Assembly (NCBI RefSeq): GCF_023195915.1
Contig: NZ_JALPRP010000001.1
Coordinates: forward strand, 1,798,001-1,862,000
Source: Methanoculleus sp. 7T
GTDB taxonomy: Archaea; Halobacteriota; Methanomicrobia; Methanomicrobiales; Methanoculleaceae
Length of the DNA: 64,000 nucleotides
Direction of reading: 5' to 3'
Below, one piece after another: positions 13,250 through 17,457 of this stretch; the first letter of the stretch is position 1; every line of letters starts with the position of its first letter. The translations under genes and the position numbers were made by a program. The notes below the pieces were generated by a model, which worked only from the letters and a program-made list of their open reading frames with translations, had not been told where the DNA came from and did no database searches.

Positions 13250-13258
13250 TTATATATA
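13250..13258 (+). promoter_or_regulatory. TATA box of surface-protein gene
   Basis: TTATATATA is a near-ideal archaeal TATA box. Initiation about 25 bases downstream would fall at about 13279, exactly at the first base of the closing stem of the structured leader. This predicts a long leader of about 180 nt for the gene at 13462. Confidence 0.75.
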
Positions 13259-13278: not shown

Positions 13279-13440
13279 TCACGGTAGTTGCCGAGGCCAG
13301 CCGGGTGGGGAGAGAGAACAGGATGCCGATGGGCGCCCGGCCGGCCGATGAGGCGAGACTTCGCCCCGGTAACCGGGGAAGAACAAGGTCCTGCTACCGT
13401 GCCAGGTGGCCCGTCCCGCAAACCACCGCCTGGAAGCCAC
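13279..13440 (+). promoter_or_regulatory. Structured 5' leader RNA element
   Basis: The predicted leader folds into a closed multi-branch structure. The ends pair perfectly over 8 bp: CACGGTAG (13280-13287) with CTACCGTG (13394-13401). Inside are GGCCAGCCGGG (13295-13305) with CCCGGCCGGCC (13336-13346, one mismatch), GGCGA/TCGCC (13352-13365) and CCCCGG/CCGGGG (13364-13378); the last two share bases and may alternate. A further hairpin, CCAGGTGG with CCACC-GCC-TGG, lies at 13403-13433, followed by the GGAGG ribosome site. I do not recognise a known riboswitch class. Confidence 0.65.
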
Positions 13441-13461
13441 ATCTAATGGAGGAATTGTAGA

Positions 13462-14520
13462 ATGAAAATCCGAGTACCGCTAGGTATCATTACCGCGGTT
13501 ATGATGGTACTGGCAGTCATGGTTCTGCCGGTTTCCGCGGCGACAACGCCGCAGAACGTTGAGACTTCGGCTATGATCGCAACGGGGGGAGGTAGCATTC
13601 CCATTGTGCTCTGCAAATGGGAAGCTGATACCACCGACTCCTGGGAAGATGGTGATCCGACACACGCCATCCCGGGAAGCCAGTTCCTGCCCCCTGCAAT
13701 ATATGAAGCCCAGAAGCCTATTCAATATTTCGCTGTCGTCTGGGATGACGAGGACAACGGCAATGTGAACGTGGTCGCCTGGGACGTCTTCCACCCGAAC
13801 GACACCTGGATCCCTGAAGAGATCAGGGGCACGTTCAAGTACCAGGTGATGGGCACGAAGATCACCGACAAGGCTCAGGCCGTGGCACTCTTCCAGAGGG
13901 CGACGAACGCCGGCCTGCTGACGATTGAAGACGGGTTCGACGCGAACACCATCCTCACCGAGTACCTCGAGAAGGGCACCGCCGCTCTCTGGGTCGGCAC
14001 CGCTGACCTTGATTACCAGCAGCCCGCCGGCAACTACCGGGTCGAGGCGAACGCCATCGACTTCAACAACAACTGGGCCGTGCCGCTGGTGAACACCTTC
14101 CTGTATGTGCCCGTCGCTGCCTTTGAGTTGGACTTCAACGCGGTCAACTACGGGTCCGTGAACGTCAACACGCACAAGTGGGTTGCAGGCAACACCATCT
14201 TCATCCAGGATGACAACCGGCCGACCATCCGGAACATCGGCAACACCCACCTCCAGGTCACCGTCGCGCAGGACGACATGGGCCTTGGGGAGAGCCTGAG
14301 CGGCTGGAACGTCCAGTGGGACGCCCGGCTGGGCAACGATGACGCCTACACGGAGGTCTACGAGCCCTACGAGCAAGTTACCCTGCCGAACCCGCTCGAA
14401 CTCTGCGACACCGATGAGCTCGACTTCTCCATCCAGGTCTTCAAGGGAACCACCGGCGAGAAGACCGGCACGATGACCCTCGGGGCCATTGTCTACCCCG
14501 AGAACACGGTTGCGGTGTAA
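13462..14520 (+). CDS. Secreted surface protein, S-layer candidate
   Basis: A 352-residue protein with a clear signal peptide (residues 1 to about 26, ending PVSA) and no other membrane segment. It contains motifs PGSQFLPP, TIRNIGN and AQDDMGL that recur in the protein encoded at 15892, so the two are paralogs. A strong promoter, structured leader and GGAGG ribosome site suggest high expression, and a 14-bp hairpin follows the gene. A role as a major cell-surface or S-layer protein is inferred; no named domain is recognised. Confidence 0.85.
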   Translation: MKIRVPLGIITAVMMVLAVMVLPVSAATTPQNVETSAMIATGGGSIPIVLCKWEADTTDSWEDGDPTHAIPGSQFLPPAIYEAQKPIQYFAVVWDDEDNGNVNVVAWDVFHPNDTWIPEEIRGTFKYQVMGTKITDKAQAVALFQRATNAGLLTIEDGFDANTILTEYLEKGTAALWVGTADLDYQQPAGNYRVEANAIDFNNNWAVPLVNTFLYVPVAAFELDFNAVNYGSVNVNTHKWVAGNTIFIQDDNRPTIRNIGNTHLQVTVAQDDMGLGESLSGWNVQWDARLGNDDAYTEVYEPYEQVTLPNPLELCDTDELDFSIQVFKGTTGEKTGTMTLGAIVYPENTVAV

Positions 14521-14553
14521 ATTCGCGTGCGGCAATAGGCTGTGACCATTCGA

Positions 14554-14590
14554 CTGGTTTTGTGCCGTATCCCGGCACAAAACCGGTTTT
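14554..14590 (+). terminator. Strong hairpin with T run after surface gene
   Basis: CTGGTTTTGTGCCG (14554-14567) pairs with CGGCACAAAACCGG (14573-14586) around a 5-base loop, with one G-T pair, and is followed by TTTT. It lies 34 bases after the stop at 14520 and 50 bases before the next start. It could end most transcripts, or protect the 3' end of the first message, so that the upstream gene is expressed more than its neighbours. Confidence 0.7.
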
Positions 14591-14639
14591 ATGATTGCCG
14601 GCACGTAGCCAACAACTGCACAGAAAACGAGGAGAGACG

Positions 14640-15833
14640 ATGAATCAGATAGCAAGGGTGACGATGGTCGTCGCCGTCGTCTTGGCGGCGGCGATCGTCT
14701 GTCAGCCCGTGAGTGCTGCAGGCATAGCCGTCGGACCTTCCAGCCAGGCTGTTGAGAACATGCTGCGGGGAGGGTCCTTTGAGCGGTCGTTGACGATCTT
14801 TAATCCGTCTGAGATGGGCTTTGATGTGGTCCTGAAGACCGAAGGGTCCGCGAAGGACTGGGTCAAGTTCTCTTCCATCGATCGCAACGAAGAGCTCCAG
14901 AAGGTCTACGTCCCGAAGAAGGGCCAGACCCCTGTCTTGATGAAGGTGACGGTCCCCGAAGATGCCGCGAACGGCCGTTACACGACGAAGATCGTCGTTG
15001 AGACGATTCCGGGCGAAGAGGTCCCCGGCTCGGTGGGGATGGTCCTCCAGGCGACATCCGCTCTGGAGATCACGGTCACCGATGTCGAGCGCGTCTCCGG
15101 TGAGGTCACGAGCGTCGTGGTGAGGGATACCGAGGTGGACATCCCGCTGGGCGTCGAGGTCGGTTTCAAGAACACGGGGAACGTTGTCGTGACCCCTGAG
15201 ATCACCGCCGTCATATCCCGGGACGGGTCGGTCGTCGCGACCGTCTCCAAGGCCGAGACGCCGGTGCGGCCCGGCGCTACGGAGCCGATCGTGGTGCACT
15301 GGCCCAACGAGGGATTCGCGGCCGGGACCTACCAGGCGAACGTTACGGTCTCGCTCCGCGGCGAGGTGCTCGCCGACGAGGGTCGAACCTTTGCGATCCT
15401 GCCGTTAGGGTCCCTTACCCGGCAGGGCGAATTGACCGATCTCGGCTACGACGGGGCGCTCACCGTCGGCAAACCGATCAAGATCACCGGCGTCTTCAAG
15501 AATTCGGGGTCGATCGCGACGAGGGCCAAACTCTCGGGCGAGGTCTACCGGGGCGGCAACCTGATCGACGTGGTATCGGGCGATGAGATGACCATTCTGG
15601 TCTTCTCCGAGAATCCCCTGACCGCGTACTACACCCCGAAGGAGCCGGGGGAGTACACGATGAAGACCTGTGCCGTCTTCGAGGGCAAGACGACCGATGC
15701 AAAGGACGTGGTCTTTACCGTCCAGCCGGATTCGTCGGGCCTGAATCTGCCGCTCTCCCCGGTCCCGGTTGCTGCAGCGCTCGCATTCATCTGTCTCTTC
15801 GTAACGGGAAGACGATGCCGCGAAAAACGGTGA
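14640..15833 (+). CDS. Ig-like surface protein with C-terminal anchor
   Basis: A 397-residue protein with a signal peptide (about 1-26), beta-rich Ig-like repeats resembling the NEW/COG1470 type (VEVGFKNTGNVVVTPEITA, ITGVFKNSGSIATRAKL), and one C-terminal membrane helix (LSPVPVAAALAFICLFV) followed by a basic tail. The topology is therefore an exposed ectodomain tethered at the membrane. A GAGGAG site precedes the ATG at 14640. Because it sits between two paralogous secreted proteins, it may anchor or assemble them; that is inference. Confidence 0.85.
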   Translation: MNQIARVTMVVAVVLAAAIVCQPVSAAGIAVGPSSQAVENMLRGGSFERSLTIFNPSEMGFDVVLKTEGSAKDWVKFSSIDRNEELQKVYVPKKGQTPVLMKVTVPEDAANGRYTTKIVVETIPGEEVPGSVGMVLQATSALEITVTDVERVSGEVTSVVVRDTEVDIPLGVEVGFKNTGNVVVTPEITAVISRDGSVVATVSKAETPVRPGATEPIVVHWPNEGFAAGTYQANVTVSLRGEVLADEGRTFAILPLGSLTRQGELTDLGYDGALTVGKPIKITGVFKNSGSIATRAKLSGEVYRGGNLIDVVSGDEMTILVFSENPLTAYYTPKEPGEYTMKTCAVFEGKTTDAKDVVFTVQPDSSGLNLPLSPVPVAAALAFICLFVTGRRCREKR

Positions 15834-15891
15834 CCGGTTTCTGCCCGTGCGTCCTGCACGGATAGGGTCACCTGATGAAGAGAGGCAGTAG

Positions 15892-17457
15892 ATGATGAAG
15901 ATTATGGACAGGATCGCGATCTTCTTCGTGATCCTCCTTGTTTCGGCCTCCGCCGTGCCGGCGTTCGCGGGTTCGCTCGGGGACGCACCCGATGCTCCTT
16001 CCATAGAGGGCGCCTTGGGAGCGGAGGCCGGTGCCGGAGCGGCCGACAACGATAGCCGGCTCCCGGACGAGCCTCTTCTGGAACCGGTTAGCCCCGGCGA
16101 GGATTCAGGCGGGCTCGGTGAAGATACGCCGGCCCCGGACGGTCCGCCCGACGGCGATGCGGTTGCTACGCCTTCTCCGGAGGTTGAGGACGCCCCCGCC
16201 GAAACGACCGGCCCGAGCGGGATGACGGCCGCGGCCACGGCTACGCCTACTCCGGGATTCAACGAGTCCGAAGGGGACGGCGTGCCGGAGGGTCCGGGCG
16301 TGGGCCTGCCTGGGGTTGAGAACGCTACAACGACGCCGCAACCGGTGGAGACGCCTGTCCCGACCGTGGATGAGCCTGAGGTCACCCCTGAACCCACGGC
16401 TTCTCCTGAAGAGACCCCCACGCCTGTCGATCCGACCCCTAAAGCAACCAACGAGTCGAGTTCAGGCGATGTACCACCTGTTAACGCCACGACTCCGGCC
16501 CCGACGAGTTCTCCGAATCCAACTCCGTCGACAGGCTCGGATGTGGTGAAGAACGAATCCGAATCTTCGGGTTCGTCGCCCGAGAACGAGACGGCCGGGG
16601 AGACCCCGTCCCGTGCGGCCGTGCTCTGCATCTGGGAGCAGCTCGATCCCGCCGGCGGCTCGCTCGACGATGACCCGGTTCAGCCGGGAAGCCAGTTCCT
16701 GCCGCCCTGCGCCTACGGCGCAACAAAGACCGTTGAGATCCGTGCGGTCGTCACCGGCGGCGGCGCGACGCCGCACTCCATCGTGGCCGACGTGACGTCG
16801 CCCGACGGTTCGGCCTTCTCTCGGGTCAACCTGACCCGGCAGGGTTCCGCGACCGACACGCTCGAGGCGGCCTCCATAGCCGGGCTGGTCGTCTACGCTC
16901 ACGGGTCGAGCCTCAACGAGGCGGTGCGTGCCCTGGAGGAGTCCCGTGCGGCGGTCTACGTGGGTGAACTCGAACTTCCGTTCAGCCAGATGCCCGGTGA
17001 CTATCGGGTCTCGGTGCAGGTCCTGCCCGAAGGTATGGACCCGGCCGATCAGCCGCTTGCCGGTATCTTTACGTACCTGCCGACGGCGTCGTTCGAGATC
17101 GATTTTGTGACGGTGGACTACGGCACCGTCGAACCGGGGAACGACGCATGGGTCGAGGGTGACGCCGACTTCGGGACAGCACAGAGACCGACGGTGCGCA
17201 ACACCGGCAACGTGCCGATCCGCATCGCGGTCAGCCAGGATGACATGGGGCTTGATGTCTCTATCGCATACACGGCAAAACTCGGCAACAACGGCACTCC
17301 GGTCACCTTCGGGCCGATGGAAGAGGTAACGCTCCCCGGCGTCCTGCCGGTGAACGAAGCGGCGCCGCTCTCGCTCGCCCTCAAGATATCGGGCGGCGAG
17401 GGTACGCCGAACGGGAGACTTCTGGTCAGTTGCGTCCCCCACGCGGCGGAGCACTGA
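15892..17457 (+). CDS. Secreted surface protein with Thr/Pro/Glu-rich stalk
   Basis: A 521-residue protein. It has a signal peptide (about 1-27), then a low-complexity Pro/Thr/Glu/Ser stretch (about 30-240) that is probably extended and O-glycosylated, and a C-terminal domain homologous to the protein at 13462: PGSQFLPP, TVRNTGN, SQDDMGL and the preceding VLCIWE all recur. The family domain thus exists once nearly alone and once on a stalk. Two ATGs, 15892 and 15895, are possible; AGAGG lies upstream. T-rich sequence just after the stop may terminate transcription. Confidence 0.85.
   Translation: MMKIMDRIAIFFVILLVSASAVPAFAGSLGDAPDAPSIEGALGAEAGAGAADNDSRLPDEPLLEPVSPGEDSGGLGEDTPAPDGPPDGDAVATPSPEVEDAPAETTGPSGMTAAATATPTPGFNESEGDGVPEGPGVGLPGVENATTTPQPVETPVPTVDEPEVTPEPTASPEETPTPVDPTPKATNESSSGDVPPVNATTPAPTSSPNPTPSTGSDVVKNESESSGSSPENETAGETPSRAAVLCIWEQLDPAGGSLDDDPVQPGSQFLPPCAYGATKTVEIRAVVTGGGATPHSIVADVTSPDGSAFSRVNLTRQGSATDTLEAASIAGLVVYAHGSSLNEAVRALEESRAAVYVGELELPFSQMPGDYRVSVQVLPEGMDPADQPLAGIFTYLPTASFEIDFVTVDYGTVEPGNDAWVEGDADFGTAQRPTVRNTGNVPIRIAVSQDDMGLDVSIAYTAKLGNNGTPVTFGPMEEVTLPGVLPVNEAAPLSLALKISGGEGTPNGRLLVSCVPHAAEH

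Follow-up and report, generated by a model that had tools for sequence, protein, structure and literature searches.

The gene 1 locus and its leader

In the window (the whole 64,000-nucleotide stretch of Methanoculleus sp. 7T DNA which was analysed), gene 1 lies behind a promoter and a long leader, the features of which are listed in Table 1. Genes 2 and 3 follow downstream on the same strand, and part of gene 3 is paralogous to gene 1. The three-gene cluster (13462-17457) encodes secreted or membrane-anchored proteins and is patchy within the genus; the C-terminal end of the gene 2 product is a transmembrane helix, and gene 3 encodes a linker rich in Pro, Thr and Glu together with a gene-1-like domain. 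There is a loose resemblance to bacterial WxL loci, with a weak, sub-threshold WxLIP match.

Table 1 Coordinates (positions in the window) of the promoter, leader and gene 1 features.
Feature	Position	Strand	Description
TATA box	13250..13258	+	TTATATATA; purine-rich BRE-like stretch directly upstream
P1, 5' strand	13280..13287	+	CACGGUAG; first base at about the predicted +1; in 7 distinct orthologues
P2, 5' strand	13288..13294	+	UUGCC followed by GA; non-bulged strand of candidate kink-turn
C-stem and P3, 5' strands	13295..13307	+	GGCC, A, then P3 strand GCCGGGUG; from fold and alignment
K1	13328..13333	+	GAUGGG; 3' side of P3 loop; complementary to 13410-13415 in 7/7 leaders
P3 and C-stem, 3' strands	13334..13346	+	P3 strand CGCCCGGC, C, then GGCC; from alignment
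Bulged strand of candidate kink-turn	13347..13356	+	GAU bulge, GA, P2 3' strand GGCGA
P4	13357..13390	+	GACUU/AGGUC (13357-13361 with 13386-13390); CCCCGG/CCGGGG (13364-13369 with 13373-13378)
P1, 3' strand	13394..13401	+	CUACCGUG; pairs with 13280-13287, 8 bp
P5 hairpin	13402..13433	+	CCAGGUGG/CCGCCUGG, loop CCCGUCCCGCAAACCA; K2 is CCCGUC at 13410-13415
Shine-Dalgarno site	13448..13452	+	GGAGG; 14 nt 3' of P5
Gene 1	13462..14520	+	352-aa secreted protein behind the leader; N-terminal hydrophobic signal; multi-domain beta fold
Gene 1/gene 2 intergenic hairpin	14552..14588	+	GGUUUUGUGCCG UAUC CCGGCACAAAACC; strong; followed by short U-rich stretch

A Pfam search with gene 1 and its operon partners returned no families above the cut-off. 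The AlphaFold model of the gene 1 product (mean pLDDT 80) was a multi-domain beta protein, and its top structural matches were surface adhesins and pilins, with low TM-scores of 0.2-0.3; the product, which has a signal-like N terminus, is read as secreted and beta-rich, with a fold which weakly resembles those of adhesins and pilins. Codon usage lent no support to the original prediction that this is a major, abundant surface protein: the codon adaptation of gene 1 was 0.564, ranking 15th of the 40 genes in the window, with mcrA far higher at 0.77. Members of the gene-1 family are patchily distributed: 7 of 35 Methanoculleus genomes carry one, as do one Methanofollis bin and a small number of further Methanomicrobiales, and distant relatives occur in other parts of the phylum. 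The hairpin between genes 1 and 2 was present at all 7 orthologous loci, where it showed compensatory sequence changes, and may be a terminator-like or a processing- or stability-like element.

The helices originally proposed for the leader were all located, namely the 8-bp P1, an 11-position helix (13295-13305 with 13336-13346, in the C-stem and P3) with one A.C mismatch, the small hairpins around 13352-13378 and a fifth hairpin before the GGAGG site. In the minimum-energy fold of 13279-13440, P1 and the last hairpin form, as does the greater part of the long arm. The small hairpins do share bases in this sequence, but the idea that they alternate was rejected, as the alternative GGCGA/UCGCC pairing in P4 was absent from the orthologue alignment as a conserved feature. 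Structural ensembles gave a mostly unpaired or mixed state for the GGAGG site, and its pairing probabilities were mixed across leaders with no common pattern; with no clear sequestration of the ribosome-binding site, classic site-masking is unsupported. The folding energy of 13279-13440 was -71.3 kcal/mol compared to -66.2 ± 4.2 kcal/mol for shuffled sequences (z = -1.22), and 24 of 200 shuffles were at least as stable. The stability of the leader is thus not above that of shuffled controls, and comparative evidence is needed.

Conservation of pairing and promoter spacing

Orthologous leaders were found in 8 genomes, giving 7 distinct sequences (six from Methanoculleus and one from Methanofollis). 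In a structure-guided alignment of these 7 leaders, which was hand-adjusted to the structure and is therefore biased in its favour, 330 of 342 cells held standard pairs (95-96% paired), and 11 of the 51 pairs showed two-sided or three-state changes, distributed among P2, the C-stem, P3, P4, P5 and the kissing pairs described below. A null in which each column was simulated independently on the gene-1 tree (2000 runs) gave 4.3 ± 1.6 changing pairs and a lower paired fraction, with each observed value reached in 1 of 2000 runs, and column shuffles reached the observed covariation in 1-3 of 500. A tool-made alignment agreed in direction, with 7 two-sided pairs where 2.8 were expected (reached in 3 of 500 column shuffles) and with two-sided pairs far above those of slid partners. 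The compensatory changes expected in homologous leaders if the structure is real were thus found, beyond both tree-aware and shuffled nulls, and the leader holds up as a structured mRNA element which covaries in relatives.

The signal came mostly from P3 and P4, with P5 marginal. The arm formed by the C-stem and P3 contained compensatory changes from C-G to U-A and from C-G to A-U as well as a three-state pair in P3, while one pair of P4 was found as A-U, G-C and G-U alongside further compensatory changes, and the joint null for the outer part of P4 gave 0/500. In P5, A-U was replaced by G-C in the leader of genome G005. For P1, P2, the C-stem and the kissing pairs, variation within the genus is too limited for covariation to support any of them individually.

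In all 7 orthologous leaders, TATATA starts 29 nt before the first base of P1. We also identified a more diverged group of four leaders in another family (f6), two per genome, upstream of tandem gene-1 copies. These have two overlapping TATATA registers and showed the same 29 nt from the second register (31 nt from the first), with spacer sequences wholly different from those of the 7 orthologous leaders. Archaeal start sites lie approximately 25 nt from the TATA centre. The constant 29-nt spacing suggests that P1 probably begins at the 5' end of the transcript, most likely at or beside +1, and backs the earlier proposal that the predicted start site and the first base of the closing helix coincide.

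That the pairing arose by chance in a G+C-rich spacer is hardly credible: the folding z of only -1.22 would be in keeping with it, but the compensatory changes, the fixed promoter-to-helix spacing and the conservation of 180 nt of otherwise non-coding sequence argue against it. It is also very unlikely that translation is coupled by an upstream open reading frame (AUG at 13329) terminating at the gene start, with the RNA fold being secondary. In 7/7 leaders this frame runs without a stop codon to a point no more than 6 nt from the gene start, but the peptide ends fall in all three frames, the AUG is ACG in G005, a second frame is nearly stop-free too, and substitutions track base pairing rather than codons. 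As the frames differ, the start is lost and a second frame is nearly open, base composition explains the stop-free frame 13329-13460, and a coding upstream frame was rejected as a conserved element.

Candidate kink-turn and loop-loop pairing

Two elements, a candidate kink-turn and a kissing interaction, are additions to the helices of the original prediction. The kissing interaction would join K1 in the P3 loop to K2 in the P5 loop. One K1/K2 pair varies, being U.G in five leaders, C-G in G005 and U-A in G029, and a fully conserved 6-bp loop match occurred in 0.2% of loop-column shuffles. The comparison of leader sequences therefore supports a 6-bp kiss between the two loops. Two of the f6 leaders contained another loop-loop match, GGGUG with CACCC, in corresponding places.

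By sequence, the internal loop that separates P2 from the C-stem carries a kink-turn signature (UUGCC-GA-GGCC / GGCC-GAU-GA-GGC in G000). Positions G1b, A2b and A1n were invariant in 7/7 leaders, and the bulge was GAU in 6 of 7 and GGU in G005. Position 2n was G in 4 leaders and A in 3, so that 3 of 7 leaders have A.A in place of the second G.A pair. Archaeal l7ae leaders also have a GAU bulge with tandem G.A pairs (PMC6298567). According to the rules given in the same study, G:C at 3b:3n disfavours folding by ions only and C:G at -1b:-1n favours folding, and all kink-turns tested there fold with L7Ae (PMC6298567). In our leaders 3b:3n was G:C in most and -1b:-1n was C:G. Judged by its sequence, the GAU/GA-GA internal loop is a candidate kink-turn, which may bend the arm and may be bound by L7Ae.

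The same genome encodes L7Ae. In its l7ae gene (L139, around 1350-1500) a hairpin containing GAUGA was seen by eye directly before the Shine-Dalgarno site, as is expected for L7Ae autoregulation. It is conceivable, if rather doubtful, that L7Ae binds the kink-turn ahead of gene 1, folds the arm and represses or stabilises the mRNA as on its own message. The canonical signature in 7 leaders, the presence of the L7Ae gene, the GAUGA element near the ribosome-binding site of its own leader and the existence of further archaeal mRNAs which are L7Ae targets (PMC5539422) all favour this, but the kink-turn here (13288-13356) is approximately 100 nt upstream of the Shine-Dalgarno site (13448-13452), which lies outside the structure, and the f6 leaders show no obvious copy of the motif. 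Archaeal l7ae leaders (Daume 2017, PMC5539422; Huang 2019, PMC6298567) are alike in having a kink-turn in the leader; however, theirs adjoins the Shine-Dalgarno site, whereas ours is far from it and belongs to a 155-nt multi-helix domain with a putatively sealed 5' end and kissing loops, on a gene for a secreted protein.

In SAM-I and lysine riboswitch aptamers, a kink-turn bends an arm and a loop pairs elsewhere in the RNA. The leader of gene 1 would be built alike, with a candidate kink-turn bending an arm whose loop pairs elsewhere. The SAM-I kink-turn is stabilised by tertiary contacts (PMC3651934). We consider it unlikely that the leader is a ligand-binding riboswitch in which the kink-turn and kissing loops form the aptamer and the ligand state sets translation. 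Besides these building blocks, conserved unpaired stretches (GGGGA and CCCGUCYCGYAAACCA) speak for a riboswitch; however, the leader precedes one structural surface-type gene only, not metabolic or transport genes, neither site masking nor a conserved alternative pairing was seen, and the arm sequence is strongly altered in f6. It also differs from the SAM-I and lysine aptamers in helix order and in having no Rfam sequence match, ligand, expression platform or metabolic gene, and while most riboswitches serve several genes, this leader serves only one gene family.

Distribution and proposed function

The f6 leaders keep P1, with a bulged A, followed directly by a hairpin in the position of P5 with its own covariation. 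An 11-mer at the P1 3' strand (CUACCGUGCCA) is common to the window and 3 of the 4 f6 leaders. The f6 interior is strongly diverged; in the second f6 copies (G066b and G046b), no consistent pairing was found for a kissing interaction or kink-turn. A single covariance model for both groups was rejected, as neither model recognised the other group, and the relation of f6 thus rests on P1, P5, the shared 11-mer, promoter spacing and gene homology. These suggest that the two types of leader are one lineage with a plastic interior. A distant gene-1 homologue of family f2 (L045, around 1300-1464) has an unrelated leader with a 5'-terminal helix and two further stable hairpins.

The R1 covariance model found no other strong copies in 232 genomes of Methanomicrobiales and 295 of the phylum, and a search of viral contigs and plasmids found nothing. 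Weak hits of R1 (L114, L115, L118 and L123) and R2 (L143, L144, L145 and L149) had many mismatched pairs or skipped helices and were attributed to chance; those inspected lay within the coding sequence of other genes or in unrelated contexts. Every copy of the leader precedes a member of the gene-1 family and, as no other strong copy was found, the RNA belongs to gene 1. Conserved pairing, occurrence with one gene family and position behind a promoter identify it as a cis-acting structured leader. The view that it falls into no known class agrees with Rfam, where the leader had no match above the gathering score, including to riboswitches and ribosomal-protein leaders (best sub-threshold E 4.6).

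We favour, with moderate confidence, the reading that in Methanoculleus and relatives the mRNA for a secreted surface-type protein begins with a hitherto undescribed 5' leader domain, which folds independently, acts in cis and would set the lifetime of the message or tune its translation. On the comparative evidence, P1 pairs what are probably the opening nucleotides of the transcript with a strand approximately 110 nt downstream, followed by the arm (P2, C-stem and P3), the side hairpin P4 and the 3' hairpin P5. The kink-turn would bend the arm, possibly with L7Ae, and the loops of P3 and P5 would meet. The sealed 5' end and compact fold would then block 5'-to-3' decay and fix the lifetime of the mRNA, while the ribosome-binding site, 14 nt further on, would stay accessible. 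The opposite end would be guarded by the hairpin after gene 1, which would also uncouple the level of gene 1 from those of genes 2 and 3; the conservation of this hairpin fits a message protected at both ends. Should there be a switching input (L7Ae level, temperature or a ligand), it would work through formation or disruption of the kink/kissing fold.

From these features we infer that the leader may control mRNA decay or ribosome loading, and that its sealed 5' end may protect from decay. In bacteria, 5'-terminal stem-loops stabilise mRNAs such as ompA. The leader of gene 1 is similar in that a helix is predicted to form from the first bases of the transcript, with the ribosome-binding site free downstream, but it is archaeal and far more elaborate, and its effect on decay is presumptive. 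We put forward only tentatively, as an improbable extension, that the 5'-sealed leader is the first example of a hitherto undescribed kind of RNA switch in archaea, with L7Ae or a small ligand setting the kink-turn/kissing fold and hence the amount of a cell-surface protein.

To our knowledge, few cis-acting structured leaders have been described in archaea, and almost none outside genes for the translation machinery, vitamins and metals. L7Ae pull-downs and decay assays can be aimed at the leader of gene 1 as a concrete target, and its constant TATA-to-helix spacing allows a direct test of 5' end sealing in the decay of archaeal mRNA. A covarying leader with a kink-turn and a kissing loop on a surface-protein gene would bring RNA-based control to the archaeal cell envelope.
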